Shown: positions 1,096 to 48,410 of the stretch, piece after piece
Layout: each line of letters opens with the position of its first letter
Numbering within the stretch: position 1 is the first letter of the stretch
Assembly (NCBI RefSeq): GCF_040958095.1
Contig: NC_091175.1
Location: forward strand, 22,088,659 to 22,152,658
DNA: 64,000 bases
Direction of reading: 5' to 3'
DNA from: Procambarus clarkii
Taxonomy: Eukaryota; Arthropoda; Malacostraca; Decapoda; Cambaridae
Notes under the pieces: model-generated
What the model saw: the letters and a program-made list of their open reading frames with translations, nothing else
The model's database searches: none
Told to the model about the DNA's origin: nothing
Program-made: the position numbers and the translations under genes

Positions 1096-1096
1096 A

Positions 1097-1114
1097 TGGT
1101 GGCAGCGGTGTTGA
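1097..1114 (+). other. Primer-binding site of LTR element
   Basis: TGGTGGCAGCGG begins one base after the LTR end, the usual place for a tRNA 3'-CCA complement. The tRNA species was not identified. Confidence 0.7.
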
Positions 1115-3157
1115 ACAATGTTGTAGGTAGTTGGTGTTCTTTTGAACATTGTTCAGTCCTACGTGTCTTTTTTGCCGCTCAGGCGCTATCAGGGAGATCT
1201 TGACAGGTGTTTAATATTCGCGATTTAGCGAGCTTTGTTCAGGTTAGGAGATGGTGATTCTCTGGTGTTGTGTTTAGTGATTTTGTGAGTTTTGTGGTAT
1301 TCAGGGAATGTTCACCAGAACTTGCGTGTGTAGTGTTTTATGTTAGTAATAAGATTTGGTGATTTGGGGAACTTAGCGGTGTTGGTAGTGCAGGTCAGCT
1401 GAGTGTGACAGGTGACCTCGCATGTCCCACGGGGACACCCAGCCACCGCTGGTCTCCAGGTCAGTGGGGAGTGGCAGGTGTAGTTTTTAAGTAGTGGTTC
1501 TGCTCAGATTATTGCGATCGACTGTTTACTCCATTTGAACGCAATAACCCGAGGTGTACTGGTATTGTACAGCATGCTAGGGGGAGGCTTAGTATGTCAG
1601 TAGACTTCACGTTGGGGACGCTCGACGTTAGATAGTCTGGTCACAGGAGTGGCAACAGTTTTGAGTTGTTGACCGGCGGAGATGCTAGGGAGACACTCTG
1701 GGTCACGTAGGTGGCTGTAGGTTAAGGGTGGGAGTAACGGTTAATTATGTACTTAAGATTAGGAACGGTACAGTTAAGTTAGGCTAGCGTTTTGTCTATT
1801 AGTGTTGATTTTTTTTGTGTGTGACAAGTTAAAAGTAGTGATGACCTTATTCTCTCTTCTCTAACTTTCCTCTGTTACTGTTTTATGTTCCACCAAGTCA
1901 ATATCATTCAGAGTTAATTGGATTATTAAAATTTAAGTGTAGTTGTTGCCAGGAGGAGAGCTTATAATTGGACTGTGTGAACCCTATACAAACTAGAGGG
2001 TCACACAACAAGATGGAACACGGGTATTGTCGCCTTTATGTTCACCCACAGGTGGGAGCCAGAAGAGAGGAGAGACGCACATACAGAAGAGGGAGACGGC
2101 TGCTGTGTACCATACTCACGGGCGTTTATCACCACCACCACGACCAGCCCACTACCTGGAGGTCATGGTTTCACCACCACCACCACCCCAGGGGACCCCA
2201 AGATGCAGCCCTCTCGGTCGGTCAACATTGGTCTACCCATTGGACCCCAAGACGGACGGACCCCAGGACGGACGGACCCCAATGGACCCCAGGTCGTTCT
2301 GCAGACGTACCCAGACGACCCAGTAAAGATGGAAGAGGAGCAACAACGACTCCAGTCTGTCCCACCAACATCGGTCTACCCAGGATGGACCCCAGGACGG
2401 ACGGACCCCAATGGACCCCAGGTCGCTTGTCAAAGACCCATGGGATGAGGAAGAGAGAAGAAAGAAGAGAGAAGAAAGAAGAGAGAAGAAAGAAGAGAAG
2501 ATAAGACAAGCTGAGTGAGACATGATACCTAGTGTCCCTTGCTGGTGTCAGCATCATTGCATGGAGCGTAATTGCAAGACAGGATCGTTTGCCTTGACTG
2601 GCCGCCCCTCCTACAAGCATGTTGCTCTGTTGAGTGATTCTTCCTGTGTCATGCGGACTTGATGTGGCTGTCAGAAGTAGCTCTCTGAAGGAGGCGTGCT
2701 GGAGCAACAGGGAGGAAGAAGTGTAGGATGGGATTTCTACTGTTGGCAACTATATGAAGGTCTCGAAACTTGTAGTCCCTATAGCTGTGAAGAACCCCAA
2801 TATACGTCTCTCATGGTGACTGACGTAGGGCCAATTACAGATCAGCTGGGACAACCGAATTCCACGGTCCTGTGCGCAGTTCAGGTAGTAACGGCTTTCG
2901 GGTTGACCAAGTGTTGTTGTGCGTTAACGACGGAGAAGCGACGGAGGCAGTTGTGTTGAAGAAATGTGGTACAGGATTATCTACAAGACCAAGCAGTGAC
3001 GTCGCCCAGCCAGAGACAATGGACGTCTGTCTATATATTTCATTTTTTAGAGTAGGATGATGTATATTTGTTTAGCTAGGATGTATTTTTTTTTTTCGTT
3101 AATAAAGTTGTTGCACACAGCTAGCTTGCTTTAGCAGTGTTGCAAAAACTTTATTTC

Positions 3158-3172
3158 GGGGAGAAGGGGAGA
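3158..3172 (+). other. Polypurine tract
   Basis: GGGGAGAAGGGGAGA directly abuts the TGTAAC start of the 3' LTR. It is the expected primer site for plus-strand DNA synthesis. Confidence 0.85.
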
Positions 3173-4489
3173 TGTAACACTGTAAGGTGTTTGGTTTAGT
3201 TTAATACATACTTAGAGTACATGAGTCACAGACAAGGATCTGAGAGGCGCCAGTTGTCTGCCTGAGATCTCACACCTCAAAGCGTTAATGACCTCAAGTG
3301 ACCTGAGGTCAGATCATGAGAATTTCACCTTGCTTCCGCTAAGCTCTTAATTGTAGTCTGGTAGCCTTCAAACAAGCCGACGTTTAAGGAGTGGCTTGGT
3401 AGTGCCGGAGGCTATCTACTTGTGGGCGGAGTTAGCTACTAGGTTCCCCAATATAAACTCGGAGAGCTATCCAGCATGAAGCATTAACAGACAGAACAAC
3501 AGAAGACAGCAGAGCAGACGGCCCTAGCAGGGAGGCTGTCGGCCGGCAGGGCGGGAGTCTCCGTCAACTACAGACCCCCCCCCCTCTCTATCCAGCTATA
3601 GGCAGAGACACTTGATGAGTTGAGCAGTAAGGTGACTTGGTCGTGTTTACATATGTTGTGTGATGATCAGGGGCAGTCAAGTTGTAGGGTTCTCGAATTC
3701 TTGGATGATGACTCACTTTGCATATTAAACTGGAACATTTTAATTGAATTGCTAAATTATGATACTTCATGGGAAATATAATTATGAATTTATTATTTAA
3801 ATTGTGTTTAACTTTGTTCCCTAGAGATTTGAGTTGAGGTGAGAAAGCCTCTGTGGTTACTGGTTTCATGATATTAACGAGTACATGTTTGGAGTTGATA
3901 CATGGTAATAACATCTTTTGAGAATATTTTGATACAGACAAGTTCCATTCCTTGTCTTGTATGTAATGATCATGAATGGTGGCAGCATTTCGTCTTCTAC
4001 TATCTACTTTCTACGTCTACTATCTACTATTCTACTTCTACTATCTACTCTTCTACTTCTACCTATCTACACCTCTCCCTCCACCCCCTCTCTAAACTCT
4101 CACTTTCAGCTAATGACCCTCCTCGCTCCTCCCACCTCTCTACCTCTCACCCCAAACCCTCACTAATTACTTCACTATTCATTTCTTTCCTTTCGTTTTC
4201 TCGTATACGTTTGTGGCAATGATTCTGTATTCTAGAGTTCTCTCTAGAGTTTCGGGTAACTGATCAAGTGACGACGCCTTGTAGTCTTAGCACCTAGGTA
4301 GTCGAATACCTAGGTTACAAGGTGTTGAACGAGAGAGGCTGCCTTAGGATCTCTGGAGGTGCTCTAGAATAGTTAGCTAACTGGGGACGGGATAACGGAC
4401 TAGAGAGAGCTGTTTCCCCCGGCCTCGTTAGTTAACTGGGGGGTGGAATAATGGACAAGATAGAGCTATTTCCCCCACCCCCCGTTACA
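3173..4489 (+). repeat. 3' LTR, complete
   Basis: 1317 bp, TGTAACACTG to CCCGTTACA. A TATA-like ATATAAA lies at 3451-3457. It includes the direct repeat of the 5' LTR from 3400 onward and is preceded by the purine tract. Confidence 0.9.
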
Positions 4490-5061
4490 ACGCTCCACCG
4501 ACGACGTGTTGCATAGGGTAAATTGTTGCACGGAACGGTGGGGAAGCCTACTAGCACCTCGGTTGGCGTCGCCTTGGTACTGAAAGGCAATTACATTGTA
4601 GAAATCTTCTACATAATAGGTAACTACAAATACATCCTAAATTATAAGGGTAACTGTAGAAATCTTCAGCCAATATCTGTGCAATTTATATTCAAGCACT
4701 GTAAATTCCTTCTGTATTCCTTGAAAACAATGAAAATAATCATCTATTTAGATGGTAAATTTAATAAAGACACGTACGGGATTTTATTATTTTATATACG
4801 GCCTAACGACAACTAGCCTAAATGTTAACTGTGGCCACATGATAACAAACAGGTGAACCTAGCTGCCGAGCCGCGTGTCCGTTGATGTGGAGACTTGAGC
4901 AATTCTTCATCCTCCAGCTGCTGCTTGAAAGGCGTTGATTTTGGAATTGCAGATATGCTAGTCTGGGACACGGCTATTATGCCAGATAACGTGGCACCGC
5001 TCTACTGGTCGTGGGAGCGAAATAAGTAGGGTCATAACGTAACTCTGCTAAACAGTCTCTG
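4490..5061. other. Intergenic, nothing recognised
   Basis: AT-rich sequence between the LTR element and a SINE. The 97-aa open frame at 4523-4816 shows no family motif. Confidence 0.4.
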
Positions 5062-5317: not shown

Positions 5318-5804
5318 CGTTGTCAATGGCGTCCGAGACGCCCTCTCCTACTCTCGTGACGCTCTCCAGTCTTCCCCCCTCTTCCCCATTGCGCATGCGC
5401 GGCTCTCGATAGACATCTCGAGCGTAAATGAATATGTATATATCGCAATTGACTAAGGAAGGAAAAGGTAGTGACGAGTATTAATATCACATTAAATTCT
5501 TCTGTGATAAAATAGAATTTCGCGTAACATAAATTGGTTTATTAAAGTTGTGCAGCTATTCGAGGAAATTAAAGTAAAATCATTTACGTTAAAGTAATTT
5601 CCTCTAGAATGTTTAATATCAACTAAATAAGGGAGTTCCAGTGAGTAGTAGTATACTACGAAATTAAACTTATTAGTAAGTAACTATTTTTAGTAAAGGA
5701 AATGATAAACTGGACTCTGTTATAAATCCAACTAAATGTGGAGAGAATTCATGTTACTGCCTGTCGTTCCTCACGTCGCCACTCTGACTAGGAAGAATCT
5801 GGCA
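5318..5804. other. Intergenic, nothing recognised
   Basis: AT-rich sequence between the SINE tail and the CR1 nest. No gene or clear repeat was seen. Confidence 0.4.
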
Positions 5805-5902
5805 ACATAAGAACAAAGGTAACTGCAGAAGGCCTATTGGCCCATACGAGGTATCTCCTATTCTATAACCACCCAATCCCACTCATATACTTGTCCAACC
5901 CG
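5805..5902 (-). mobile_element. CR1 copy E, segment 1 (3' end)
   Basis: Minus-strand 3' end of ORF2 plus the short 3' UTR and one tail octamer. E is cut here by copy A. The last five bases, ACCCG (5898-5902), recur at 9836-9840 as A's target duplication. Confidence 0.85.
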
Positions 5903-5967
5903 CATAAGAACATAAGAACAAAGGTAACTGCAGAAGGCCTATTGGCCCATACGAGGCAGCTCCTATT

Positions 5968-8904
5968 CTATAACCACCCAATCCCACTCATATACTTGTC
6001 CAACCCGTGCTTGAAACAATCGAGGGACCCCACCTCCACAATGTTACGCGGCAATTGGTTCCACAAATCAACAACCCTGTTACTGAACCAGTATTTACCC
6101 AAGTCTTTCCTAAATCTAAACTTATCCAATTTATATCCATTGTTTCGTGTTCTGTCCTGTGTTGATACTTTTAATACCCTATTAATATCCCCCCGGTTAT
6201 GTCCATTCATCCACTTGTAAACCTCTATCATGTCACCCCTAACTCTTCGCCTTTCCAGTGAATGCAACTTAAGCTTTGTTAATCTTTCTTCATATGAAAG
6301 ATTTCTAATTTGGGGAATTAACTTAGTCATCCTACGCTGGACACGTTCAAGTGAATTTATATCCATTCTATAATATGGCGACCAAAACTGAACTGCATAA
6401 TCTAAATGGGGCCTAACTAGAGCAAGATATAGCTTGAGAACCACACCAGGTGTCTTGTTACTAACGCTGCGATTAATAAATCCAAGTGTCCGATTTGCCT
6501 TATTACAAACATTTATGCATTGATCCTTTTGTTTTAAATTCTTACTAATCATAACTCCCAGATCCCTTTCGCAATCCGACTTCGCAATCACAACACCATC
6601 TAGCTCGTATCTTGTAACTCTATCATCATTACCTAACCTCAGAACTTTACATTTATCAGCATTAAACTGCATCTGCCAATCCTTTGACCATTTCAAAACC
6701 CTATCTAGATCAACTTGAAGTGATAGTGAGTCCTCCTCCGAATTAATTTCCCTACCGATTTTCGTATCATCGGCAAATTTGCAAATGTTGCTACTCAAAC
6801 CTGAATCTAAATCATTTATATATATTATAAACAACAGAGGTCCCAGGACAGAGCCTTGAGGCACTCCACTTACAACATTTTCCCACTCTGACTTGATTCC
6901 ATTTATACTAACTCTCTGTTTCCTTTGGTATAGCCATGCCCTAATCCAGCTTAATATAGCACCCCCAATACCATGAGACTCTATTTTTTTAATCAGTCTT
7001 TCATGTGGCACTGTATCAAAAGCTTTGCTAAAGTCAAGGTATACAACATCGCAATCCTTACCACTATCAACTGCCTCAACAATGCTAGAATAAAAAGATA
7101 ACAAATTTGTTAAACATGAACGGCCATTTATAAAACCATGTTGCGACTCAATTATTAATTTATGCTTTTCAAGATGAAGACGAATTTTATTTGCTATTAT
7201 AGATTCGAGTAACTTTCCCACAATAGACGTTAGGCTAATTGGTCGATAGTTAGACGCAAGTGATCTATCTCCTTTCTTAAAAACTGGTATCACATTAGCA
7301 ACTTTCCAAAACTCTGGCACTCTGCCTGACTCTACTGATTTATTAAATATGGTTGACAGTGGGTCACAAAGCTCCTCTTTGCATTCTTTAAGCACCCTAG
7401 CAAACACTTCATCCGGCCCTGGGGATTTGTTTGGTTTGAGTTTTACTATTTGTTTAAGAACATCCTCCCTGGTAACTGCTAAACTCGTCAACCTGTCCTC
7501 GTCCCCACCCACATAGACTTGTTCGGCTGAAGGCATATTGTTAAGTTCCTCTTTAGTAAATACAGATACAAAATATTTATTAAAAATACTACTCATCTCT
7601 TCATCACTATCTGTTATTTGACCTGTCTCAGTTTTTAATGGACCTATCCTTTCCCTAGTCTTAGTACGATATAACTGAAAAAACCCTTTAGGATTTGTCT
7701 TTGCTTGCCCTGCTATGCGAACTTCATAGTTTCTTTTTGCTTTCCTTATCTCTTTTTTAACATTTCTAACCAGTTGTACGAATTCCTGTTCTAAAGTGAC
7801 CTCCCCATTTTTAATCCTTTTGTACCAAGCTCTCTTTTTACCTATAAGGTTCTTCAAATTCTTTGTTATCCACTTTGGGTCATTAGTATATGATCTATTC
7901 AATTTGTATGGTATACTACGTTCCTGTGCTTTGTTTAGAATATTCTTAAATAAGTTATATATTGAATCCACATCGAAATCCCCATTTAAGTCACCTATCG
8001 CTGGGTTCATGTCTCGCTCCAAGACCGGCCCACTCCCCATACCCAAGCCTTTCCAATCAATTTGACCCAAAAAATTTCTTAGGCTATTAAAATCAGCTTT
8101 TCGAAAATCTGGCACTTTAACAGAATTTTCTCCTACTGGTCTATTCCATTCTATGCTAAATCTGATTTCTTTGTGATCACTGCTCCCTAGCTCACTCCCT
8201 ATTTCGATGTCATTAATTTGCGTTTCCCTGTTAGTTAACACTAAATCTAAAATATTATTTTCCCGTGTTGGTTCCTTAATGTGTTGCGTAAGAAAGCAAT
8301 CGTCAATTAATTCTAGAAAATCTTCTGCTTCACTATTCCCTGTTTTGTTCAACCAGTTTATTCCGCTAAAATTAAAGTCACCCATGACATAAATACTGTT
8401 AGATCTAGATGCTCTAGATATTTCATCCCATAGATGCTTTGCTTCCATTCTGTCTAAATTTGGTGGCCTATATATTACTCCTATTATAATATTATTAGCT
8501 TTTTCGTTTAATTCAATCCAAATAGTTTCTGTGTGTGGCTCCGTTTTGATTCCCTCTTTGAGACTACATTTCAAATTGTCCCTAACATATATGGCTACTC
8601 CACCTCCTCGTCTAATATATCTATCTGTGTGAAATAGTTTAAATCCATATATTTGATATTCAGCTAATAGTTCTCTATTTTCTACTTTCATCCACGTTTC
8701 GGTAAGTGCAATAATATCTATTTTTTCTGTGCAGACAAGAGCATTTAATTCGTTAATTTTATTTCTTAGACTTCTACTGTTAGTGTAATATACCCTAAGT
8801 GAATTGTTATTTTGCGGACCTTCTCTTTCCCTGATCGTTTTGCCAATTCCTTTCTCCCACAAACACATACTTTTATTACCTCCTTCCTCCAAATCAATTC
8901 CCAT
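5968..8904 (-). CDS. CR1 ORF2: endonuclease-reverse transcriptase
   Basis: This is the replication enzyme of the LINE: it nicks target DNA and copies the element RNA at the nick. The frame is open up to 8937 (989 codons, with a non-ATG first codon). The first ATG is at 8904, 11 bases past the ORF1 stop, which suggests reinitiation. The APE-type endonuclease comes first: NSRSL and LTETW (about residues 53-82 of the open frame), YRPPN, GDFNFSGINW and SSDHK. The RT follows: a KPNKSPGPDE lead, NYRPISLTS, motif A YLDFSKAFDT, motif B GVPQGSVLGP and motif C FADD. The C-terminal VQRRMTKLIPQIRNLSYEERL block is typical of CR1/Jockey-group LINEs. No stop or frameshift is seen. Compared with sister copies, one Arg in the CINVRNKANR block is Cys here. 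Confidence 0.93.
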   Translation of the reverse strand: MGIDLEEGGNKSMCLWEKGIGKTIREREGPQNNNSLRVYYTNSRSLRNKINELNALVCTEKIDIIALTETWMKVENRELLAEYQIYGFKLFHTDRYIRRGGGVAIYVRDNLKCSLKEGIKTEPHTETIWIELNEKANNIIIGVIYRPPNLDRMEAKHLWDEISRASRSNSIYVMGDFNFSGINWLNKTGNSEAEDFLELIDDCFLTQHIKEPTRENNILDLVLTNRETQINDIEIGSELGSSDHKEIRFSIEWNRPVGENSVKVPDFRKADFNSLRNFLGQIDWKGLGMGSGPVLERDMNPAIGDLNGDFDVDSIYNLFKNILNKAQERSIPYKLNRSYTNDPKWITKNLKNLIGKKRAWYKRIKNGEVTLEQEFVQLVRNVKKEIRKAKRNYEVRIAGQAKTNPKGFFQLYRTKTRERIGPLKTETGQITDSDEEMSSIFNKYFVSVFTKEELNNMPSAEQVYVGGDEDRLTSLAVTREDVLKQIVKLKPNKSPGPDEVFARVLKECKEELCDPLSTIFNKSVESGRVPEFWKVANVIPVFKKGDRSLASNYRPISLTSIVGKLLESIIANKIRLHLEKHKLIIESQHGFINGRSCLTNLLSFYSSIVEAVDSGKDCDVVYLDFSKAFDTVPHERLIKKIESHGIGGAILSWIRAWLYQRKQRVSINGIKSEWENVVSGVPQGSVLGPLLFIIYINDLDSGLSSNICKFADDTKIGREINSEEDSLSLQVDLDRVLKWSKDWQMQFNADKCKVLRLGNDDRVTRYELDGVVIAKSDCERDLGVMISKNLKQKDQCINVCNKANRTLGFINRSVSNKTPGVVLKLYLALVRPHLDYAVQFWSPYYRMDINSLERVQRRMTKLIPQIRNLSYEERLTKLKLHSLERRRVRGDMIEVYKWMNGHNRGDINRVLKVSTQDRTRNNGYKLDKFRFRKDLGKYWFSNRVVDLWNQLPRNIVEVGSLDCFKHGLDKYMSGIGWL

Positions 8905-8915
8905 ACCTCTATCTA

Positions 8916-9767
8916 CTAACAGTTTAAACCCAAACAAACACCTCTAACCACTTCTTCTAGCGAGTTCGCAACAGCAACAACCCCAGCTCTCGATAGATGC
9001 ACCCCATCACGAGCATACATTTCATTTCTTCCATAGAAGTGTTCCCAGTTGTCTATGAAAGATATTGCATTTGATTTGCAATATCTTTCCAGCCGGCAAT
9101 TGACACCAAGTGCCCTCGATATCCATTCATTTCCCACTCCCTTTCTTGGAAGAATGCCACATATGATCGGGATTCCTCCCTTGCTCCTAACTAACTCTAT
9201 GGCTGTTTTATACCTCTGAATCAGTTCCTCACTCCTGACTCGACCAACATCATTTCCTCCCACGCTAATGCAAATAATGGGATTGTTCCCATTACCAGCC
9301 ATAATATCATTCATGTTGTTTATAATATCACCAATGCCAGCTCCGGGATAGCAAACCCTTAACCTGTTCCCCCTATCTCTAGCACAAAACGTTCTATCCA
9401 AATACCTTATCTGGGAATCTCCCACAACTAATGTTTGCTTAGGTACTTTCTTTACTTTCTGAGGGGCCTGCGCTTCCTTTCTCTTCGTTGCTTTCCCTTT
9501 TGCGCGATCCACAGTCTCTCCACAGCACTCGTCCTCCAAAACGTCAAATGAATTTGAAGTTGCTATGGCGTTTGAAGGCGGCTTTATCAAAGTCTTCTTA
9601 AGGCCCCTGTCTTTCGCAACTCTCCAAGACGAGGTCCCTTTACTGCTGGTCTCCTCCTTCGTTACTTCTCGTTGTTTTTTAAGCTGACGCACCTCCTCCC
9701 GCAGAGAGTCCAACTCTGTCCTCAGGGCTCCCACTAGAGTCACCAGGTCCTTCACTACAACTTCCAT
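8916..9767 (-). CDS. CR1 ORF1: coiled coil plus SGNH/GDSL esterase-like domain
   Basis: 283 aa from the ATG at 9767. The open frame runs upstream to 9791 only by a GTG codon, so I chose the ATG. The N terminus has a leucine/charged heptad stretch (about residues 6-40) that should form a coiled coil. A basic, low-complexity linker follows. The C-terminal ~165 aa carry the SGNH hydrolase blocks: GDSQIRYLD (catalytic Ser), GGNDVGR (Gly/Asn block) and DGVHLSRAG (Asp-x-x-His). Esterase-type ORF1 proteins are known from CR1 LINEs and are thought to act in RNP assembly or membrane/RNA contacts; the substrate is unknown. It lies directly upstream of ORF2 on a shared transcript. Confidence 0.9.
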   Translation of the reverse strand: MEVVVKDLVTLVGALRTELDSLREEVRQLKKQREVTKEETSSKGTSSWRVAKDRGLKKTLIKPPSNAIATSNSFDVLEDECCGETVDRAKGKATKRKEAQAPQKVKKVPKQTLVVGDSQIRYLDRTFCARDRGNRLRVCYPGAGIGDIINNMNDIMAGNGNNPIICISVGGNDVGRVRSEELIQRYKTAIELVRSKGGIPIICGILPRKGVGNEWISRALGVNCRLERYCKSNAISFIDNWEHFYGRNEMYARDGVHLSRAGVVAVANSLEEVVRGVCLGLNC

Positions 9768-9835
9768 ATTGCTATGATAATATAACAACACTCAGGAGCT
9801 CCGGTTAACACAACCTCTCACTGTGACTTCACCTG

Positions 9836-10429
9836 ACCCGCGCTTGAAACAATCGAGGGACACCACCTCCACCACGTTACGCGGCAATTGGTTCCACAAA
9901 TCAACAACCCTGTTACTGAACCAGTATTTACCCAAGTCTTTCCTAAATCTAAATTTATCCAATTTATACCCATTGTTTCGTGTTCTGTCTTGTGTTGATA
10001 TTTTTAATACCCTATTAATATCCCCCCTGTTATGTCCATTCATCCACTTGTAAACCTCTATCATGTCACCCCTAACTCTTCGCCTTTCCAGTGAATGCAA
10101 CTTAAGCTTTGTTAATCTTTCTTCATATGAAAGATTTCTAATTTGGGGAATTAACTTAGTCATCCTACGTTGGACACGTTCAAGTGAATTTATATCCGTT
10201 CTATAATACGGCGACCAAAACTGAACTGCATAATCTAAATGGGGCCTAACCAGAGCAAGATATAGCTTAAGAACCACACCAGGTGTCTTGTTACTAACGC
10301 TTCGATTAATAAATCCCAGTGTCCTATTCGCCTTATTACGAACATTCATGCATTGATCCTTTTGTTTTAAATTCTTACTAATCATAACTCCCAGATCCCT
10401 TTCGCAATCCGACTTCGCAATCTCAACAC
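9836..10429 (-). pseudogene. CR1 copy E, segment 2 (ORF2 C-terminal part)
   Basis: Minus-strand remnant encoding the RT thumb and C-terminal region, from the DCERDLG block to SLDCFKRG. At the low end it is cut by copy A and at the high end by copy B. The AACAC at 10425-10429 recurs at 11921-11925. Confidence 0.85.
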
Positions 10430-11853
10430 TTAAAGAATGCAAAGAGGAGCTTTGTGACCCACTGTCAACCATATTTAATAAATCAATAGAGTCAGGCAGA
10501 GTGCCAGAGTTTTGGAAAGTTGCTAATGTGATACCAGTTTTTAAGAAAGGAGATAGATCACTTGCGTCTAACTATCGACCAATTAGCCTAACGTCTATTG
10601 TGGGAAAGTTACTCGAATCTATAATAGCAAATAAAATTCGTCTTCATCTTGAAAAACATAAATTAATAATTGAGTCGCAACATGGTTTTATAAATGGCCG
10701 TTCATGTTTAACAAATTTGTTATCTTTTTATTCTAGCATTGTTGAGGCAGTTGATAGTGGTAAGGATTGCGATGTTGTATACCTTGACTTTAGCAAAGCT
10801 TTTGATACAGTGCCACATGAAAGACTGATTAAAAAAATAGAGTCTCATGGTATTGGGGGTGCTATATTAAGCTGGATTAGGGCATGGCTATACCAAAGGA
10901 AACAGAGAGTTAGTATAAATGGAATCAAGTCAGAGTGGGAAAATGTTGTAAGTGGAGTGCCTCAAGGCTCTGTCCTGGGACCTCTGTTGTTTATAATATA
11001 TATAAATGATTTAGATTCAGGTTTGAGTAGCAACATTTGCAAATTTGCCGATGATACGAAAATCGGTAGGGAAATTAATTCGGAGGAGGACTCACTATCA
11101 CTTCAAGTTGATCTAGATAGGGTTTTGAAATGGTCAAAGGATTGGCAGATGCAGTTTAATGCTGATAAATGTAAAGTTCTGAGGTTAGGTAATGATGATA
11201 GAGTTACAAGATACGAGCTAGATGGTGTTGTGATTGCGAAGTCGGATTGCGAAAGGGATCTGGGAGTTATGATTAGTAAGAATTTAAAACAAAAGGATCA
11301 ATGCATAAATGTTCGTAATAAGGCAAATCGGACACTTGGATTTATTAATCGCAGCGTTAGTAACAAGACACCTGGTGTGGTTCTCAAGCTATATCTTGCT
11401 CTAGTTAGGCCCCATTTAGATTATGCAGTTCAGTTTTGGTCGCCATATTATAGAATGGATATAAATTCACTTGAACGTGTCCAGCGTAGGATGACTAAGT
11501 TAATTCCCCAAATTAGAAATCTTTCATATGAAGAAAGATTAACAAAGCTTAAGTTGCATTCACTGGAAAGGCGAAGAGTTAGGGGTGACATGATAGAGGT
11601 TTACAAGTGGATGAATGGACATAACCGGGGGGATATTAATAGGGTATTAAAAGTATCAACACAGGACAGAACACGAAACAATGGATATAAATTGGATAAG
11701 TTTAGATTTAGGAAAGACTTGGGTAAATACTGGTTCAGTAACAGGGTTGTTGATTTGTGGAACCAATTGCCGCGTAACATTGTGGAGGTGGGGTCCCTCG
11801 ATTGTTTCAAGCACGGGTTGGACAAGTATATGAGTGGGATTGGGTGGTTATAG
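10430..11853 (+). pseudogene. CR1 copy B ORF2 fragment (RT and C terminus)
   Basis: An open frame in phase with ORF2 from the truncation point to the normal stop. Motif A YLDFSKAFDT, motif B GVPQGSVLGP and FADD are intact. It lacks the endonuclease and the start of the RT, so it cannot move by itself. Nearly identical to copy A, hence a recent insertion. Confidence 0.88.
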
Positions 11854-11920
11854 AATAGGAGCTGCCTCGTATGGGCCAATAGGCCTTCTGCAGTTACCTT
11901 TGTTCTTATGTTCTTATGTT
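10430..11920 (+). mobile_element. CR1 copy B, 5'-truncated, plus strand
   Basis: Starts inside the RT (LKECKEEL block) and runs through the ORF2 stop (11853) to a tail of two TTCTTATG octamers. It is flanked by AACAC. 5' truncation is the usual outcome of target-primed reverse transcription. Confidence 0.9.
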
Positions 11921-12468
11921 AACACCATCTAGCTCGTATCTTGTAACTCTATTATCATTTCCTAGCCTCAGAACTTTACATTTATCAGCATTAAACTGCA
12001 TTTGCCAATCATTTGACCATTTCAAAACCCTATCTAGATCAACTTGAAGTGATAGTGAGTCCTCCTCCGAATTAATTTCCCTACCGATTTTCGTATCATC
12101 GGCAAATTTGCAAATGTTGCTACTCAAACCTGAATCTAAATCATTTATATATATTATAAACAACAGAGGTCCCAGGACAGAGCCCTGAGGTACTCCACTA
12201 ACAACATTATCCCACTCTGACTTAACCCCATTTATACTAACTCTCTGTTTCCTTTGGAATAGCCATGCCCTAATCCAAGTTAATATAGCACCCCCAATAC
12301 CATGAGCCTCTATTTTTTTAATTAGTCTTTCATGTGGCACTGTATCAAAAGCTTTGCTAAAATCAAGGTACACAACATCACAATCCTTACCACTATCAAC
12401 TGCCTCAACTATGCTGGAATAAAAAGTTAGCAAATTTGTTAAACATGAACGGCCATTTGTAAAACCAT
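11921..12468 (-). pseudogene. CR1 copy E, segment 3 (RT core)
   Basis: Minus-strand remnant from TRYELDGV back to GFTNGRSCLTNLL, including motif A, motif B and FADD. It shows E-specific variants relative to A/B/D/F (for example GIGGAILTWIRAWLFQ). It is continuous with segment 2 on one side and segment 4 on the other. Confidence 0.85.
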
Positions 12469-15259
12469 AAGAACATAAGAACATAAGAACAAAGGTAACT
12501 GCAGAAGGCCTATTGGCCCATACGAGGCAGCTCCTATTCTATAACCACCCAATCCCACTCATATACTTGTCCAACCCGTGCTTGAAACAATCGAGGGACC
12601 CCACCTCCACAATGTTACGCGGCAATTGGTTCCACAAATCAACAACCCTGTTACTGAACCAGTATTTACCCAAGTCTTTCCTAAATCTAAACTTATCCAA
12701 TTTATATCCATTGTTTCGTGTTCTGTCCTGTGTTGATACTTTTAATACCCTATTAATATCCCCCCGGTTATGTCCATTCATCCACTTGTAAACCTCTATC
12801 ATGTCACCCCTAACTCTTCGCCTTTCCAGTGAATGCAACTTAAGCTTTGTTAATCTTTCTTCATATGAAAGATTTCTAATTTGGGGAATTAACTTAGTCA
12901 TCCTACGCTGGACACGTTCAAGTGAATTTATATCCATTCTATAATATGGCGACCAAAACTGAACTGCATAATCTAAATGGGGCCTAACTAGAGCAAGATA
13001 TAGCTTGAGAACCACACCAGGTGTCTTGTTACTAACGCTGCGATTAATAAATCCAAGTGTCCGATTTGCCTTATTACGAACATTTATGCATTGATCCTTT
13101 TGTTTTAAATTCTTACTAATCATAACTCCCAGATCCCTTTCGCAATCCGACTTCGCAATCACAACACCATCTAGCTCGTATCTTGTAACTCTATCATCAT
13201 TACCTAACCTCAGAACTTTACATTTATCAGCATTAAACTGCATCTGCCAATCCTTTGACCATTTCAAAACCCTATCTAGATCAACTTGAAGTGATAGTGA
13301 GTCCTCCTCCGAATTAATTTCCCTACCGATTTTCGTATCATCGTCAAATTTGCAAATGTTGCTACTCAAACCTGAATCTAAATCATTTATATATATTATA
13401 AACAACAGAGGTCCCAGGACAGAGCCTTGAGGCACTCCACTTACAACATTTTCCCACTCTGACTTGATTCCATTTATACTAACTCTCTGTTTCCTTTGGT
13501 ATAGCCATGCCCTAATCCAGCTTAATATAGCACCCCCAATACCATGAGACTCTATTTTTTTAATCAGTCTTTCATGTGGCACTGTATCAAAAGCTTTGCT
13601 AAAGTCAAGGTATACAACATCGCAATCCTTACCACTATCAACTGCCTCAACAATGCTAGAATAAAAAGATAACAAATTTGTTAAACATGAACGGCCATTT
13701 ATAAAACCATGTTGCGACTCAATTATTAATTTATGTTTTTCAAGATGAAGACGAATTTTATTTGCTATTATAGATTCGAGTAACTTTCCCACAATAGACG
13801 TTAGGCTAATTGGTCGATAGTTAGACGCAAGTGATCTATCTCCTTTCTTAAAAACTGGTATCACATTAGCAACTTTCCAAAACTCTGGCACTCTGCCTGA
13901 CTCTATTGATTTATTAAATATGGTTGACAGTGGGTCACAAAGCTCCTCTTTGCATTCTTTAAGCACCCTAGCAAACACTTCATCCGGCCCTGGGGATTTG
14001 TTTGGTTTGAGTTTTACTATTTGTTTAAGAACATCCTCCCTGGTAACTGCTAAACTCGTCAACCTGTCCTCGTCCCCACCCACATAGACTTGTTCGGCTG
14101 AAGGCATATTGTTGAGTTCCTCTTTAGTAAATACAGATACAAAATATTTATTAAAAATACTACTCATCTCTTCATCACTATCTGTTATTTGACCTGTCTC
14201 AGTTTTTAATGGACCTATCCTTTCCCTAGTCTTAGTACGATATAACTGAAAAAACCCTTTAGGATTTGTCTTTGCTTGCCCTGCTATGCGAACTTCATAG
14301 TTTCTTTTTGCTTTCCTTATCTCTTTTTTAACATTTCTAACCAGTTGTACGAATTCCTGTTCTAAAGTGACCTCCCCATTTTTAATCCTTTTGTACCAAG
14401 CTCTCTTTTTACCTATAAGTTTCTTCAAATTCTTTGTTATCCACTTTGGGTCATTAGTATACGATCTATTCAATTTGTATGGTATACTACGTTCCTGTGC
14501 TTTGTTTAGAATATTCTTAAATAAGTTATATATTGAATCCACATCGAAATCCCCATTTAAGTCACCTATCGCTGGGTTCATGTCTCGCTCCAAGACCGGC
14601 CCACACCCCATACCCAAGCCTTTCCAATCAATTTGACCCAAAAAATTTCTTAGGCTATTAAAATCAGCTTTTCGAAAATCTGGCACTTTAACAGAATTTT
14701 CTCCTACTGGTCTATTCCATTCTATGCTAAATCTGATTTCTTTGTGATCACTGCTCCCTAGCTCACTCCCTATTTCGATGTCATTAATTTGCGTTTCCCT
14801 GTTAGTTAACACTAAATCTAAAATATTATTTTCCAGTGTTGGTTCCTTAATGTGTTGCGTAAGAAAGCAATCGTCAATTAATTCTAGAAAATCTTCTGCT
14901 TCACTATTCCCTGTTTTGTTCAACCAGTTTATTCCGCTAAAATTAAAGTCACCCATGACATAAATACTGTTAGATCTAGATGCTCTAGATATTTCATCCC
15001 ATAGATGCTTTGCTTCCATTCTGTCTAAATTTGGTGGCCTATATATTACTCCTATTATAATATTATTAGCTTTTTCGTTTAATTCAATCCAAATAGTTTC
15101 TGTGTGTGGCTCTGTTTTGATTCCCTCTTTGAGACTACATTTCAAATTGTCCCTAACATATATGGCTACTCCACCTCCTCGTCTAATATATCTATCTGTG
15201 TGAAATAGTTTAAATCCATATATTTGATATTCAGCTAATAGTTCTCTATTTTCTACAGT
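12469..15259 (-). mobile_element. CR1 copy D, 5'-truncated, minus strand
   Basis: Three tail octamers at 12465-12490, then the 3' UTR and ORF2 up to the endonuclease region, where it ends near 15256. CCAT at 12465-12468 and 15260-15263 is the probable target duplication; it is ambiguous because the octamer tail also supplies CAT. Confidence 0.87.
12539..15256 (-). pseudogene. CR1 copy D ORF2, N-terminally truncated, altered motif C
   Basis: Open over most of ORF2; it lacks the first part of the endonuclease. The RT motif C reads FDDD instead of FADD because of a single substitution near 13344 in the codon before the two catalytic aspartates. The other motifs match copy A. Truncation alone makes it non-autonomous. 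Confidence 0.88.
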
Positions 15260-15433
15260 CCATGTTGCGACTCATTTATTAATTTATGTTTTTCAAGATG
15301 GAGACGAATTGTATTTGCAATTATTGATTCAAGTAACTTTCCCACAATAGACGTTAGGCTAATTGGCCGATAGTTTGACGCAAGTGATCTATCTCCTTTC
15401 TTAAAAATTGGTACCACATTAGCTACCTTCCAT
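15260..15433 (-). pseudogene. CR1 copy E, segment 4 (RT N-terminal part)
   Basis: Continues segment 3 after the CCAT duplication. It encodes the region around the NYRPISLTS block and is cut by copy F. TTCCAT (15428-15433) recurs at 17815-17820. Confidence 0.82.
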
Positions 15434-17814
15434 TAGCTACCTTTACGGGAAAATAATATTTTAGATTTAGTGTTAACTAACAGGGAAACGCAAATTAATG
15501 ACATCGAAATAGGGAGTGAGCTAGGGAGCAGTGATCACAAAGAAATCAGATTTAGCATAGAATGGAATAGACCAGTAGGAGAAAATTCTGTTAAAGTGCC
15601 AGATTTTCGAAAAGCTGATTTTAATAGCCTAAGAAATTTTTTGGGTCAAATTGATTGGAAAGTCTTGGGTATGGGGTGTGGGCCGGTCTTGGAGCGAGAC
15701 ATGAACCCAGCGATAGGTGACTTAAATGGGGATTTCGATGTGGATTCAATATATAACTTATTTAAGAATATTCTAAACAAAGCACAGGAACGTAGTATAC
15801 CTTACAAATTGAATAGATCGAATACTAATGACCCAAAGTGGATAACAAAGAATTTGAAGAACCTTATAGGTAAAAAGAGAGCTTGGTACAAAAGGATTAA
15901 AAATGGGGAGGTCACTTTAGAACAGGAATTCGTACAACTGGTTAGAAATGTTAAAAAAGAGATAAGGAAAGCAAAAAGAAACTATGAAGTTCGCATAGCA
16001 GGGCAAGCAAAGACAAATCCTAAAGGGTTTTTTCAGTTATATCGTACTAAGACTAGGGAAAGGATAGGTCCATTAAAAACTGATACAGGTCAAATAACAG
16101 ATAGTGATGAAGAGATGAGTAGTATTTTTAATAAATATTTTGTATCTGTATTTACTAAAGAGGAACTTAACAATATGCCTTCAGCTGAACAAGTCTATGT
16201 GGGTGGGGACGAGGACAGGTTGACGAGTTTAGCAGTTACCAGGGAGAATGTTCTTAAACAAATAGTAAAACTCAAACCAAACAAATCCCCAGGGCCGGAT
16301 GAAGTGTTTGCCAGGGTGCTTAAAGAATGCAAAGAGGAGCTTTGTGACCCACTGTCAACCATATTTAATAAATCAATAGAGTCAGGCAGAGTGCCAGAGT
16401 TTTGGAAAGTTGCTAATGTGATACCAGTTTTTAAGAAAGGAGATAGATCACTTGCGTCTAACTATCGACCAATTAGCCTAACGTCTATTGTGGGAAAGTT
16501 ACTCGAATCTATAATAGCAAATAAAATTCGTCTTCATCTTGAAAAACATAAATTAATAATTGAGTCTCAACATGGTTTTATAAATGGCCGTTCATGTTTA
16601 ACAAATTTGTTATCTTTTTATTCTAGCATTGTTGAGGCAGTTGATAGTGGTAAGGATTGCGATGTTGTATACCTTGACTTTAGCAAAGCTTTTGATACAG
16701 TGCCACATGAAAGACTGATTAAAAAGATAGAGTCTCATGGTATTGGGGGTGCTATATTAAGCTGGATTAGGGCATGGCTATACCAAAGGAAACAGAGTTA
16801 GTATAAATGGAATCAAGTCAGAGTGGGAAAATGTTGTAAGTGGAGTGCCTCAAGGCTCTGTCCTGGGACCTCTGTTGTTTATAATATATATAAATGATTT
16901 AGATTCAGGTTTGAGTAGCAACATTTGCAAATTTGCCGATGATACGAAAATCGGTAGGGAAATTAATTCGGAGGAGGACTCACTATCACTTCAAGTTGAT
17001 CTAGATAGGGTTTTGAAATGGTCAAAGGATTGGCAGATGCAGTTTAATGCTGATAAATGTAAAGTTCTGAGGTTAGGTAATGATGATAGAGTTACAAGAT
17101 ACGAGCTAGATGGTGTTGTGATTGCGAAGTCGGATTGCGAAAGGGATCTGGGAGTTATGATTAGTAAGAATTTAAAACAAAAGGATCAATGCATAAATGT
17201 TCGTAATAAGGCAAATCGGACACTTGGATTTATTAATCGCAGCGTTAGTAACAAGACACCTGGTGTGGTTCTCAAGCTATATCTTGCTCTAGTTAGGCCC
17301 CATTTAGATTATGCAGTTCAGTTTTGGTCGCCATATTATAGAATGGATATAAATTCACTTGAACGTGTCCAGCGTAGGATGACTAAGTTAATTCCCCAAA
17401 TTAGAAATCTTTCATATGAAGAAAGATTAACAAAGCTTAAGTTGCATTCACTGGAAAGGCGAAGAGTTAGGGGCGATATGATAGAGGTTTACAAGTGGGT
17501 GAATGGACATAACAAGGGGGATATTAATAGGGTATTAAAAGTATCAACACAGGACAGAACACGAAACAATGGGTATAAATTGGATAAGTTTAGATTTAGG
17601 AAAGACTTGGGTAAATACTGGTTCAGTAACAGGGTTGTTGATTTGTGGAACCAATTGCCGCGTAACGTGGTGGAGGTGGGGTCCCTCGATTGTTTCAAGC
17701 GCGGATTGGACAAGTATATGAGTGGGATTGGGTGGTTATAGAATAGGAGCTGCCTCGAATGGGCCAATAGGCCTTCTGCAGTTACCTTTGTTCTTATGTT
17801 CTTATGTTCTTATG
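15434..17814 (+). mobile_element. CR1 copy F, 5'-truncated, plus strand
   Basis: Begins in the endonuclease region (ENNILDLVLTN block) after about 11 bases of filler that copy the target (TAGCTACCTT). It ends with three TTCTTATG octamers and is flanked by TTCCAT (the CCAT core is certain; the TT is ambiguous with the tail). Confidence 0.87.
15445..17741 (+). pseudogene. CR1 copy F ORF2 fragment with 2-bp deletion
   Basis: The frame runs from the end of the endonuclease through RT motif A, then loses two bases (GA of CAGAGAGTT) at about 16795 and meets a stop at 16799-16801. The remaining RT and C terminus (motif B, FADD) resume in another frame to 17741. The deletion lies between motifs A and B, so no full RT can be made. 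Confidence 0.88.
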
Positions 17815-19930
17815 TTCCATGACTCTGGCACTCTGCCTGACTCTATTGATTTATTAAATATGGTAGACAGTGGCTCGCAAAGCTCCTCTTTGCATTCTTT
17901 AAGCACCCTGGCAAACACTTCATCCGGCCCTGGGGATTTGTTTGGTTTTAGTTTTTCTAATTGTTTAATTACATCCTCCCTGGTAACTGCTAAACTAGTC
18001 AACCTGTCCTCATCCCCACCCACATAGACTTGTTCGGCTGAAGGCATATTGTTAAGTTCTTCTTTAGTAAATACAGATATAAAATATTTGTTAAAAATAC
18101 TACTCATCTCCTTGTCATTATCCGTTATTTGACCTGTCTCAGATTTTAATGGACCTATCCTTTCCCTAGTCTTAGTTCGATATAACTGAAAAAACCCTTT
18201 AGGATTTGACTTTGCTTGCTCTGCTATGCGAACTTCATAGTTTCTTTTTGCTTTCCTAATCTCTTTTTTAACATTTCTAACCAGTTGTATGAATTCCTGT
18301 TCTAATCTGACTTAACCATTCTTAATCCTTTTGTACCACGCTCTCTTTTTACCTATAAGGTTCCTTAAATTATTTGTTATCCACTTTGGGTCATTAGTAT
18401 TCGATCTATTCAATTTGTATGGTATACTACGTTCCTGTGCTTTGTTTAGAATATTCTTAAATAAGTTATATATTAAATCCACATCGAAATCCCCTTTTAC
18501 GTCACCTATCGCTGGGTTCATGTCTCGCTCCAAGACCGGCCCACACCCCATACCCAAGAGTTTCCAATCTATTTGACCCAAAAAATTTCTTAGGCTATTA
18601 AAATCAGCTTTTCGAAAATCTGGCACTTTAACAGAATTTTCTCCTACAGGTCTATTCCATTCTATGCTAAATCTGATTACTTTGTGATCACTGTTCCCTA
18701 GCTCACTCCCTATTTCGATGTCATTAATTTGTGTTTCCCTGTTAGTTAACACTAAATCTAAAATATTATTTTCTCGCGTTGGTTCCTTAATGTGTTGCGT
18801 AAGAAAGCAATCGTCAATTAATTCTAGAAAATCTTCTGCTTCACTATTCCCTGTTTTGTTCACCCAGTTTATTCCACTAAAATTAAAGTCACCCATGACA
18901 TAAATACTGTTAGATCTAGATGCTCTAGATATTTCATTCCATAGATGCTTTGCTTCCATTCTGTCTAGATTTGGTGGCCTATATATAACTCCTATTATAA
19001 TATTATTTGCTTTTTCGTTTAATTCTATCCAAATAGTTTCTGTGTGTGGCTCAGTTTTGATTCCCTTTTTGAGACTACATTTCAAATTGTCCCTAACATA
19101 TATGGCTACTCCCCCTCCTCGTCTAATATATCTATCTGTGTGAAATAGTTTAAATCCATTTATCTGATATTCAGCTAATAGTTCTCTATTTTCTACGTTC
19201 ATCCACGTTTCGGTAAGTGCAATAATATCTATTTTTTCTGTGCAGACAAGAGCATTTAATTCATTAATTTTATTTCTTAGACTTCTACTGTTAGTGTAAT
19301 ATATCCTAAGTGAATTGTTATTTTGAGGCCCTTTTCTTTCCCTGATCATTTTGCCAATTCTTTTCTCCCACGAACACATACTTTTATTACCTCCTTTTAT
19401 TACCTCCTTCCTCCAAATCAATTCCCATACCACTATCTACTAACAGTTTAAACCCAAACAAACACCTCTAACCACTGGTTCCAACGAGTTCGCAACAGCA
19501 ACAACCCCAGCCCTCGATAGATGCACCCCATCACGAGCATACATTTCATTTCTTCCATAGAAGCGTTCCCAGTTGTCTATGAAAGATATTGCATTTGATT
19601 TGCAATATCTTTCCAGCCGGCAATTGACACCAAGTGCCCTCGACATCCATTCATTTCCCACTCCCTTTCTTGGAAGAATGCCACATATGATCGGGATTCC
19701 TCCCTTGCTCCTAACTAATTCAATGGCTGTCCTAAATCTCTGTATTAGTTCCTCACTTCTAACTCGCCCAACATCATTACCCCCTGCACTAATACAAATA
19801 ATGGGTTTGTTCCCATTTCCCGTCATAATATCATTCATGTTTTCAACAATATCACCAATTCCAGCTCCCGGATAGCAAACCCTTAATCTGTTCCCCCCTA
19901 TCTCTGGCACAAAACGTTCTGTCTAAATAC
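17815..19930 (-). pseudogene. CR1 copy E, segment 5 (ORF2 5' half and ORF1 3' part)
   Basis: Minus strand: the ORF2 RT N terminus and endonuclease (GDFNFSGINW and NSDHK present), then the ORF1 esterase region with GGNDVGR and DGVHLSRAG. It is broken by a 13-bp tandem duplication close to the ORF2 start (near 19382-19410), by an extra C near 19900 in ORF1, and by further changes. ORF1 ends abruptly at about 19930, before the GDS block and coiled coil. Confidence 0.87.
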
Positions 19931-19972
19931 ATAGGGAAAATAAAGACTAGGGAAATACTTTCCCTAGTCTTA
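19931..19972. other. Junction filler with 13-bp perfect inverted repeat
   Basis: AAGACTAGGGAAA (19943-19955), a TAC loop, and TTTCCCTAGTCTT (19959-19971). The right arm is the start of CR1 fragment G and the left arm is its inverted copy, with no other counterpart in E. Confidence 0.85.
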
Positions 19973-20523
19973 GTTCGATATAACTGAAAAAAATCTTTAG
20001 GATTTGACTTTGCTTGCTCTGCTATGCGAACTTCATAGTTTCTTTTTGCTTTCCTAATCTCTTTTTTAACATTTCTAACCAGTTGTATGAATTCCTGTTC
20101 TAAACTGACTTCCCCATTCTTAATCCTTTTGTACCAAGCTCTCTTTTTACCTATAAGGTTCTTTAAATTATTTGTTATCCACTTTGGGTCATTAGTATTC
20201 GTTCTATTCAATTTGCATGGTATACTACGTTCCTGTGCTTTGTTTAGAATATTCTTAAATAAGTTATATATTAAATCCACATCGAAATCCCCTTTTACGT
20301 CACCTATCGCTGGGTTTATGTCTCGCTCCAAGACCGGCCCACACTCCATACCCAAGACTTTCCAATCTATTTGACCCAAAAAATTTCTTAGGCTATTAAA
20401 ATCAGCTTTTCGAAAATCTGGCACTTTAACAGAATTTTCTCCTACAGGTCTTTTCCATTCTATGCTAAATCTGATTACTTTGTGATCACTGTTCCCTAGC
20501 TCACTCCATATTTCGATGTCATA
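19956..20523 (-). pseudogene. CR1 fragment G (ORF2 middle part)
   Basis: Minus-strand piece from the region between the endonuclease and RT back to the SDHKV endonuclease block, truncated at both ends. It shares with E, and not with A/B/D/F, several variants (such as TTACGTCACC and ATTACTTTGTGATCACTGTT), so it belongs to E's older subfamily. It could be part of the same insertion as E by template switching, or a separate old fragment. Confidence 0.8.
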
Positions 20524-21439
20524 ATGAATTATGAATTATGAATGCGTGTTTGGGGTCGACCGCTGGTGGAATGGACGTGGTCTGAGGGACGGGTTCGGGA
20601 GAGAAGGGTCGCTGCTTTAACGAGCCTGCCGTGAGGACAGGTTGCAGTTGTGGCAACCACTGTTGTATCGCCACGTGTGAAAACCGCCACTGTATCACCA
20701 CCACACATGACAACCACCAATGTATCACCTTTCTTAGTACTAACACCACTAGCACCACCAAAACTAACCAATCACCCCAGTTTCCACATTACACCACAGT
20801 CAACCACAACTCGCTACCACCAACAACCACAATGTACCACCTTCCACCGCTACATCACTCATTGTATCGCACCATTGAAAAGTTCCGGCGGAAACACCAA
20901 GCTGGACCAACAATTGTGTTCAGAACCTCGCCCTCCCAGTCACGCCCACACCCCGCCACCCACACCACCCCACCCACACCCATACCCTACCACACACCAC
21001 CCCACCCACACCCATACCCTACCACACACCCCCTCCGCCCACACCCCCCACCACCCACACCACACGCCCAACACAACGTCATGATGAAATGCATGTGGGG
21101 GAGAGAGAGAGAATGGGGGAATGCAAGGTTGCGTAATGAAAGCATAATTCCCCTGTCACCCTAACTAGGCCATTGGCTCTATATAAACAAATATTCATCT
21201 AGCCTCTGGGTTGGGCAAACAAGTTTCCTATTTGGCGTAAGTGTTCATTGGGCCGAGTGGAGAGAGTGTATCCAAAGAAACACGTTAATATCTCTATGTA
21301 CAGAACTCGCTAATTGGCATTAATTATGATAATTAGCGTTGTATAGGTGTGAAGTATGGGACCTCAAAATAATTATTATATTCTGATTACGGTGTCGGAA
21401 ACAGTGACCTTGTATACATACTTTAGTCCCCCCCCCCCC
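20524..21439. other. Intergenic, CA/CCCACA-rich low-complexity DNA
   Basis: ATGAATT repeats at 20523-20543, ACCAC-rich sequence at 20690-20840, and a C/A-rich block at 20945-21066 with a ~35-bp direct duplication containing ACCCATACCCTACCACACA. The open frames here are low-complexity. A run of 11-12 C lies at 21428-21439. Confidence 0.6.
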
Positions 21440-22769: not shown

Positions 22770-23480
22770 GTTGGCTGTATCGGTAGCCTCACAGGATGAA
22801 TATGTGGTCCATTCCTGCTCTCGGGAGAGATATGTGATGAATTGCTCACAGGATAGGTATGGGTGGAGTCCACTACCGCACAAAGGATGAGTATGGAGTG
22901 CACGTCATAAAAGTATTTGTGTGTACGTCTGATAACATACTACTTGTGAAGGAGGAAATGTATATGTTTATCTCTCAGAATGTTTGGTAATATGTTTATT
23001 GTTTGTGATGTGTGTCTATGTATGTATTAACACGTTGTACTGAACGGGGTGAGAATAGCTTGAGCTACCTCATCCCTTTGTGTGTATTTTACCTCAATAA
23101 ACTTATTTCAATTTCAATTTAAATTCAACTTCTCACAGCATAGGTATGTGGTGCATTACCACTCACATGATGGGTATGTGGTTCATTACTGCTCATAGGG
23201 GGGGTAATGGATCCACTGCCGATGACAAGTTGGGTATGCTGGAGCCACTATCGCCCACAGGATAAGTATGGGGTCCACTACTGCTTACAGGATGGGTATG
23301 GGATGCACTTTCTCTCACAGGATGGGTATGGGGTGCACTCTCTCACAGGATGGGTATGGGGTGCACTCTCTCACAGGATGGGTATGGGGTGCACTCTCTC
23401 ACAGGATGGGTTTGTGGGTGCACACACACAGAATGGGTATGTGGGTGCACACTCACAGAATGGGTATGAGCTGCATAATA
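22770..23480 (+). repeat. Decayed minisatellite, ~28-30 bp (CACAGGATGGGTATGGGGT family)
   Basis: Degenerate units at 22788-22900, interrupted by unrelated DNA, then clearer units at 23130-23475 built on CTCACAGGATGGGTATGGGG plus TGCACT or TCCACTAC. It ends in GCATAATAAATGAAC. The same unit recurs inverted at 47795-48110 and 56315-56700. Confidence 0.8.
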
Positions 23481-47600: not shown

Positions 47601-47794
47601 TTCTGCTCTTTGCTGCCCCTGGTGAGTTGTTCTTGTGTTTTGTTCTCTGTGGTGAGAAAGCAAGCATAGAAGCCCTCCAAGAAAACCAGCAGTGAATGTA
47701 CAGTAATGAAATGTTTCTTTTTCTTTTCTATTGATTTGTGATTAGCTTGAGGTGTGCCATCCTGGTCACACCTAGATGGTGTGGGTGCCAGTAT

Positions 47795-48110
47795 TGTGCA
47801 CCCCATAATCATCTTGTGAGTGGCAGTTTATTGTGCACTCCATACTCATCCTGTGAGTGGCAGTTTACTGTGCACGCCATACTCATCCTGTGAGTGGCAG
47901 TTTACTGTGCACGCCATACTCATCTTGTGAGTGGCAGATTATTGTGCACCCCAAACTCATCCTGTGAGTGGGGTTATTGTGCACTCCATACTCATCCTGT
48001 GAGTGGGGTTATTGTGCACTCCATACTCATCCTGTGAGTGGCAGTTTATTGTGCACTCCATACTCATCCTGTCAGCGATAGTTTAATATGCAACTCATAA
48101 ATATACTCAT
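47795..48110 (-). repeat. Minisatellite, ~30-36 bp (CACAGGATGAGTATGGAGTG family)
   Basis: About eight units built on CCATACTCATCCTGTGAGTG with a GCAGTTTATTGTGCACT spacer; some units lack GCAGTTTA-type bases. Reverse complement of the 23.1-23.5 kb family. The low-copy edge again has a GCATATTAAA-like sequence. Confidence 0.85.
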
Positions 48111-48406
48111 CCTTTTATTAGGTTTTTCTTGATAGCAGCCCTTATAGTTTAATCTAATTTTGACAAATTTCACAAAATACTAAATTCGTCAGGTTGTTCA
48201 ATACGATCACAACTTTTTTTTTTAATCAAGATAAACAAACTGTAATCAATGTTTTTTTATGAATAGGGAACTTAAAAGTTAGTGTTTTTATCCAACTGAA
48301 TTATAACATTTTATCTAGCATTTCGAATGATACGTTAAAAGTGACTAGTGACTAATAACCGACTAGGCTGTTGAAAATAAATTCAAATTTTGTTAATTAT
48401 TATACT

Positions 48407-48410
<4 letters not shown>

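Follow-up and report, generated by a model that had tools for sequence, protein, structure and literature searches.

A 64,000-base stretch of the Procambarus clarkii genome (contig C26, positions 22,088,659–22,152,658; hereafter the window), taken from a 4.03 Gb assembly of 2,308 contigs, contains an old copy of a CR1-like long interspersed nuclear element (LINE) that is interrupted by four younger members of the same family. Of the insertions of this family that were sampled, about half lie inside own-family copies; the copies entered are both old and young, targets occur in both orientations and at many places along the element, and the result is Russian-doll clusters. Insertion of this LINE probably prefers own-family DNA, and we infer that its ribonucleoprotein is tethered to own-family loci; this interpretation is supported, with a component of local spill-over.

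Insertions were sampled through the last 58 bases (3′ end) of the young copies, a sequence with 11,794 exact occurrences genome-wide, about equally on the two strands (reversed control, 0). The first sample comprised the first 100 of these matches by position, all of which are on contig C1, and the second comprised all 27 genome-wide carriers of one CpG transition in the 58-mer. Both samples (127 sites) were taken without regard to flank, and the 3′ flank of each site was read and scored as a self-insertion when a BLAST match to copy A, the window copy used as query and as reference for element coordinates and identities throughout, started no more than 25 bases past the tail. Family CR1 was found at the 3′ junction of 48 of the 100 exact sites and 15 of the 27 variant sites (63/127 in total). 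Duplicated flanks were then collapsed (100 to 93 on C1 and 27 to 24 for the variant, giving 117 independent flanks), which left 46/93 and 15/24 self-insertions, or 61/117 (52%; 95% confidence interval 43–62%). The collapsing was imperfect, in that one L018 copy was retained and an AT-repeat site in L028 was fused with L017, both being non-CR1 cases. Under a stricter rule, with CR1 starting at most 15 bases past the tail, 46 of the first 99 exact sites and 10 of the first 20 variant sites were self-insertions. The target has the same orientation as the insert at 35 of the 61 junctions and the opposite orientation at 26 (26/117 for opposite alone), and its identity to A is at least 98% in 33 cases, 95–98% in 11 and below 95% in 17, the lowest being ~85%.

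The genomic share of the family was estimated from 28-base words counted with up to three mismatches at three element positions, so that the family is defined here at an identity of at least 89%. This gave 29,266 copies near the 3′ end, 19,489 near position 2705 and 14,112 near position 1700, and a hand trapezoid through these values, with zero copies upstream of 1700 at its low end and none lost upstream at its high end, corresponds to 47–71 Mb, or ~1.2–1.8% of the genome (1.64% was used in the flank analysis). The excess of self-insertion over this share is ~30–45-fold, and doubling the share for uncounted diverged copies would still leave ~15-fold. As a baseline, 40 fixed control points totalling 48,000 bases (including 1,627 N), half on C1 and half spread over six other contigs, were examined, and the family was absent from all 40; at one of them (L094), 143 bases in two weak matches at 71–79% identity were not scored as family. 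A preliminary description of the window, made from its letters, had proposed that the self-hits imply local abundance or self-preference, and that the self-insertion rate should be compared with the genomic fraction; on the 127-site sample the rate lies far above that fraction, and equality was not seen.

Two further sets of sites were considered. The 40 top-ranked places for copy A were excluded as a main sample because the ranking of candidates may favour nests; with that reservation, and with two places on C45 that are possibly one duplication, 22 of 39 top-ranked places outside the window, 98–100% identical to A over 1.9 kb, have CR1 within 15 bases past the tail. A genome-wide search for one junction pattern (tail, 0–9 bases, one 12-base element word), which covers one 10-base target stretch in one orientation, returned 13 matches on 11 contigs, against 0 for the reversed control and a hand expectation of at most ~0.7. 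The same enrichment could arise if insertion were random and copies landing in CR1 were harmless and kept while the others were purged. Such selection needs no special machinery, and the purging of harmful insertions is a general expectation for LINEs; however, by hand reasoning it would have to remove ~97% of the insertions elsewhere in the 4 Gb genome within the short life of these copies, very young copies are already self-nested (the 22 of 39 places above), and the CpG transition is present in only 27 copies as opposed to 11,794 without it, so that this explanation is very unlikely.

In the window itself, BLAST of A recovered the old minus-strand copy, E, as five colinear pieces split by the inserts A, B, D and F (Table 1). 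Adjacent pieces overlap by 4–5 element bases at each of the four breaks, representing target-site duplications, and all four inserts were also recovered by a second script that sought inserts flanked left and right by one target copy. The preliminary description had rebuilt E across four interruptions, with inserts in both orientations (A and D minus, B and F plus) flanked by short repeats of E's own sequence, and these points are upheld by the overlaps and the second script. Its placement of the four hits within ~3.5 kb of E was correct as to clustering, but 3.5 kb is the whole of E, and the inserts all fall between element positions 2533 and 3838, a span of ~1.3 kb. The proposal that near-identical inserts came in one burst also stands in part: they are closer to each other than to E (identity to A of 99.8% for B, 99.6% for D and 98.9% for F, compared with 92.5–98% for the E pieces), but F diverges by ~0.9–1.1% from A, B and D, which differ among themselves by 0.07–0.36%, so that one burst is not necessarily one moment. 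Insert F carries ~12 additional bases at its 5′ junction. The extension of E as a single copy to position 20523 has to be abandoned, since the final part is a separate old fragment, G. Within 19931–20525, G is joined to E's 5′ end via ~24 bases of other sequence, and E's own 5′ junction may also be with CR1. Family bases make up 14,668 of the 64,000 in the window, and BLAST of A found no family copies in the remaining ~49 kb.

Junctions are spread across element positions 635–3938 with few repeats. A single hot spot was ruled out by this spread, though the site CATG/GTTTT, which is used by insert D, recurs: it is present at 9 of the 13 pattern junctions, with ATG common to tail and target, and is shared by matches on C1, C7, C12, C31, C52, C70 and C94, two of them close together on C1. 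Junctions were placed by a 15-base word, for which only 43 were suitable and a few (such as L009) are doubtful. The tail and the target share 0–4 bases at the placed junctions, and microhomology of at least 2 bases occurs in 27/43, compared with 7.6% at random positions, as target-primed reverse transcription should produce when the annealed primer is short. New copies bear further marks of this process: an octamer tail, pairing of ~2 bases between tail and target, 5′ truncation and, where they are visible, short target duplications. No long site motif was seen at the sampled junctions, and the endonuclease alone is therefore unlikely to produce a 30-fold excess.

The long loci and the window together contain 59 tail ends, 30 of which have CR1 on the 3′ side. 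At 11 of these 30 (four of them from the window) the interrupted target copy is picked up again upstream, overlapping by 2–5 bases, so that outside the window 7/26 CR1-flanked tail ends have one target copy on both sides; by eye, few of ~10 non-CR1 sites show a target duplication. These data bear on the possibility that template jumping or 3′ transduction yields head-to-tail dimers that mimic nested insertions. Head-to-tail pairs are present at L010, L011 and L035, and other LINE reverse transcriptases are known to jump between templates. However, the 26/61 junctions in opposite orientation are not made in any simple way by such jumping, the target continues on the far side in the 11/30 cases (including L021, which at first appeared dimer-like), and junction positions are nearly all different, which does not fit one transduced source; this origin is most improbable. 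Collapsed or chimeric repeat joins in the assembly are an extremely unlikely source of the pattern: the CR1 copies are nearly identical, the contigs number in the thousands, and L011 and L023 contain N runs, but tails are joined to many internal positions, some with target duplications, at which the 0–4 shared bases are too few for a false join by an assembler, and 18 of the 20 long C1 loci are without N.

Exact sites on C1 show strong clustering: of the 99 gaps, 40 measure at most 5 kb (0.9 expected), 48 at most 10 kb (1.8 expected) and 54 at most 50 kb (8.9 expected). The excess is thus confined to ~10–20 kb, and with a 10 kb cut the sites fall into 52 clusters or isolated insertions along 52.8 Mb of the contig. 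Local hopping, in which a daughter lands beside its mother, was rejected, because clustered copies differ by 0.62% compared with 0.72% overall (P = 0.22; 30 copies, with the omission of three L017/L018 array duplicates, L001, L014, and L002–L008, which had been chosen for A-likeness); an earlier P = 0.03 still included most of these omitted copies. Since clustered copies are not closer kin, they appear to arrive from elsewhere and to converge on old copies. Distant CR1-like LINEs (<75% amino-acid identity) are not enriched: in the 56 flanks without family CR1 they account for 5.5% of the initial 300 bases, compared with 9.0% of control bases, and lie at base 30 in 2/56 (small samples), which indicates a preference for the own family rather than for LINE-rich DNA.

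Several points weigh against the reading of a self-preference. The larger insertion sample comes from one contig, and the variant sample shrinks to 24 flanks once duplicates are collapsed; the copy counts cover the 3′ two-thirds of the profile and identities of at least 89%; and 19/30 CR1-flanked tail ends are without a colinear upstream continuation, seven of them running off the edge of the fetched locus and the others being irregular or multiply nested. In addition, non-CR1 insertions cluster too, with 11/46 gaps of at most 10 kb (0.43 expected), three of these 11 lying in a satellite-rich stretch, and family CR1 downstream of non-CR1 sites rises from 1.9% at 50–150 bases to 7.9% at 300–500 bases. 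The signal is thus partly local, and these last two grounds led to rejection of the idea that insertion preference ends sharply where CR1 does. In a separate observation, L040, L042 and L043 (C1 ~23.535–23.544 Mb) are three young CR1 copies in arrays of a ~20-base satellite, AGATCTGGGGTACTATATG-like, which is either a second preferred target or a duplicated array.

The clustering of non-CR1 insertions, some of them in satellite arrays, raises the alternative that hot domains of ~10–30 kb (open or late-replicating chromatin, satellites) attract the LINE whatever the sequence, and that self-insertions follow as these domains fill with CR1; CR1 makes up 59% (85,614/146,017 bases) of the long C1 loci, which had been chosen for containing insertions. 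Nevertheless, hand-estimated insertion rates on C1 are ~53 per Mb inside the family and ~0.9 per Mb elsewhere, or ~59-fold per base, whereas the excess near CR1 is ~10–13-fold, and the rate within several kb of young copies ~10-fold over background (rough hand estimates). All four inserts of the window are in E and the remaining 49 kb is free of them, close gaps are in excess only up to ~10–20 kb, distant LINEs are not enriched, and family CR1 is scarce at 50–150 bases past non-CR1 sites, even though it is more frequent at 300–500. Taken together, these data make hot domains by themselves unlikely.

Tethering fits all three of the own-family preference, the lack of closer kinship among neighbouring copies and the clustering of non-CR1 insertions, whereas fixed hot domains fit the third but not the first. 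The ribonucleoprotein would be brought to own-family loci before nicking; its own RNA and ORF1 protein (ORF, open reading frame) would most likely tether it there, either to nascent CR1 transcripts or to CR1-bound chromatin, and the endonuclease would then use any weak A/T-rich site. This tethering would also account for the weaker excess in non-CR1 DNA near existing copies. The mode of self-recognition is what we infer. A more specific version can be offered only tentatively: a homing LINE, in which the CR1 ribonucleoprotein would recognise own-family DNA or nascent RNA by sequence, in either orientation and down to ~85% identity, with dead copies serving as landing pads and distant CR1 relatives being spared. 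If true, this would be a self-made safe haven spread through the genome.

How LINEs avoid killing their host is a standing question, and the known safe havens are ribosomal DNA, telomeres and microsatellites and, in algae, clusters of the element itself. If an abundant CR1-like LINE does place about half of its new insertions in its own remains, it would represent a dispersed, self-propagating safe haven, whose thousands of natural junctions would make target finding by a retrotransposon particle testable; self-insertion would also explain the tangled LINE islands that annotation pipelines fragment.

In behaviour, the nearest known system on the best reading is the algal LINE Zepp, from which the present element differs in being dispersed. 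Zepp and Zepp-like LINEs of the L1 clade in green algae are reported to enter copies already present, which gives each chromosome a single nested cluster that is thought to be centromeric or at chromosome ends and consists mostly of 3′ parts because of 5′ truncation (PMC8226300, PMC3446292). Like Zepp, the crayfish element enters existing copies, in its case beyond their genomic share, but the crayfish clusters are scattered along contig C1, the host genome is ~80 times larger, and the GDSL-type ORF1 and octamer tail speak against L1-clade membership. Celine, a LINE of poplar centromeres, is described as showing recent amplification, nesting and a unique target duplication per copy, but it mostly enters centromeric LTR (long terminal repeat) elements and is ~7% self-nested in one poplar, compared with 52% here (PMC11288735). 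Autoinsertion is also reported for some plant LTR retrotransposon families, with an over-representation called slight by the authors (PMC6911290), those being LTR elements and the present one a LINE. The bird CR1 of the coscoroba shares with the crayfish element two ORFs and an octamer 3′ repeat (TTCTGTGA in the bird, TTCTTATG here), and its report gives a mild base preference at insertion, a preference for TTCT and flanks rich in AT; in its main text neither "nested" nor "within CR1" was found (PMC2612034). Searches of listings of open-licence papers turned up no report of self-insertion preference for CR1, which is no proof of absence; as far as such searches reach, a dispersed, family-specific self-preference that involves about half of the sampled insertions of a CR1-like LINE is a new form of this known behaviour.

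The element is classified as CR1-like, a name that rests on the preliminary description, the predicted domains and the tail. ORF2 of copy A matches the Pfam models RVT_1 (E-value 2.1e-37), Exo_endo_phos_2 (3.7e-13) and Exo_endo_phos (2.4e-12), corresponding to an apurinic-type endonuclease and a reverse transcriptase, and ORF1 matches Lipase_GDSL_2 (1.9e-9), an esterase/GDSL domain that is frequent in ORF1 among CR1/L2. The 3′ tail is (TTCTTATG)n, an octamer repeat instead of poly(A) as in CR1; the probe ends by construction in one TTCTTATG unit, and 0–2 more whole units follow in the sampled sites. Target duplication is absent or unclear in chicken CR1 and is not a strict criterion. The element is very young and probably recently active.

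Table 1. Pieces of the nested CR1-like cluster and ORFs of copy A, in window coordinates.
Feature	Position	Strand	Remarks
E piece 1 (3′ end of old CR1)	5804..5902	-	element 3932-3834; BLAST
Insert A, nearly full-length CR1 (~3.9 kb)	5903..9835	-	target duplication ACCCG
ORF2 of A, 978 aa	5968..8904	-	endonuclease PF14529/PF03372, reverse transcriptase PF00078; hand-derived coordinates
ORF1 of A, 283 aa	8916..9767	-	GDSL-lipase/esterase-like, Pfam PF13472; hand-derived coordinates
E piece 2	9836..10429	-	element 3838-3245; BLAST
Insert B, 5′-truncated CR1	10429..11920	+	element 2449-3938; target duplication AACAC
E piece 3	11921..12468	-	element 3249-2702; BLAST
Insert D, 5′-truncated CR1	12469..15256	-	element 1156-3938; target duplication CCAT; site CATG/GTTTT
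E piece 4	15260..15432	-	element 2705-2533; BLAST
Insert F, 5′-truncated CR1	15445..17814	+	element 1575-3938; target duplication 5-6 bases (TTCCAT)
E piece 5 (5′-truncated end of E)	17815..19930	-	element 2537-436; BLAST
G, second old CR1 fragment adjoining E's 5′ end	19955..20525	-	element 2195-1624; BLAST

Several of the sampled loci have an unusual structure. L020 is a three-level nest, and L024 contains nine CR1 3′ ends in ~8 kb. At L055 (C1:35,281,554-35,281,935), two young CR1 3′ ends face each other ~250 bases apart inside the reverse transcriptase of a distant LINE, and beside their tails L033 and L081 have a stretch of 189 identical bases that runs in opposite directions. A ~58-base piece of CR1 positions 3651–3708 recurs without the rest of the element in L017, L018, L023 and L028, and L017/L018 also contain a tandem array whose ~3.2 kb units all carry a CR1 copy within an AT repeat.

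Rfam gave no matches in the window at gathering thresholds. Outside the cluster, positions 1–1095 and 3400–4490 are near-identical direct repeats 3.4 kb apart, both ending in GTTACA; by eye, the second possibly begins with TGTAAC at 3174, which would leave ~2.1 kb between the two, and the pair resembles an LTR retrotransposon truncated where the window begins. Many minisatellite arrays, with units of 20–43 bases among others, occupy 23132–23475 and 47792–64000, one of them reaching the end of the window.

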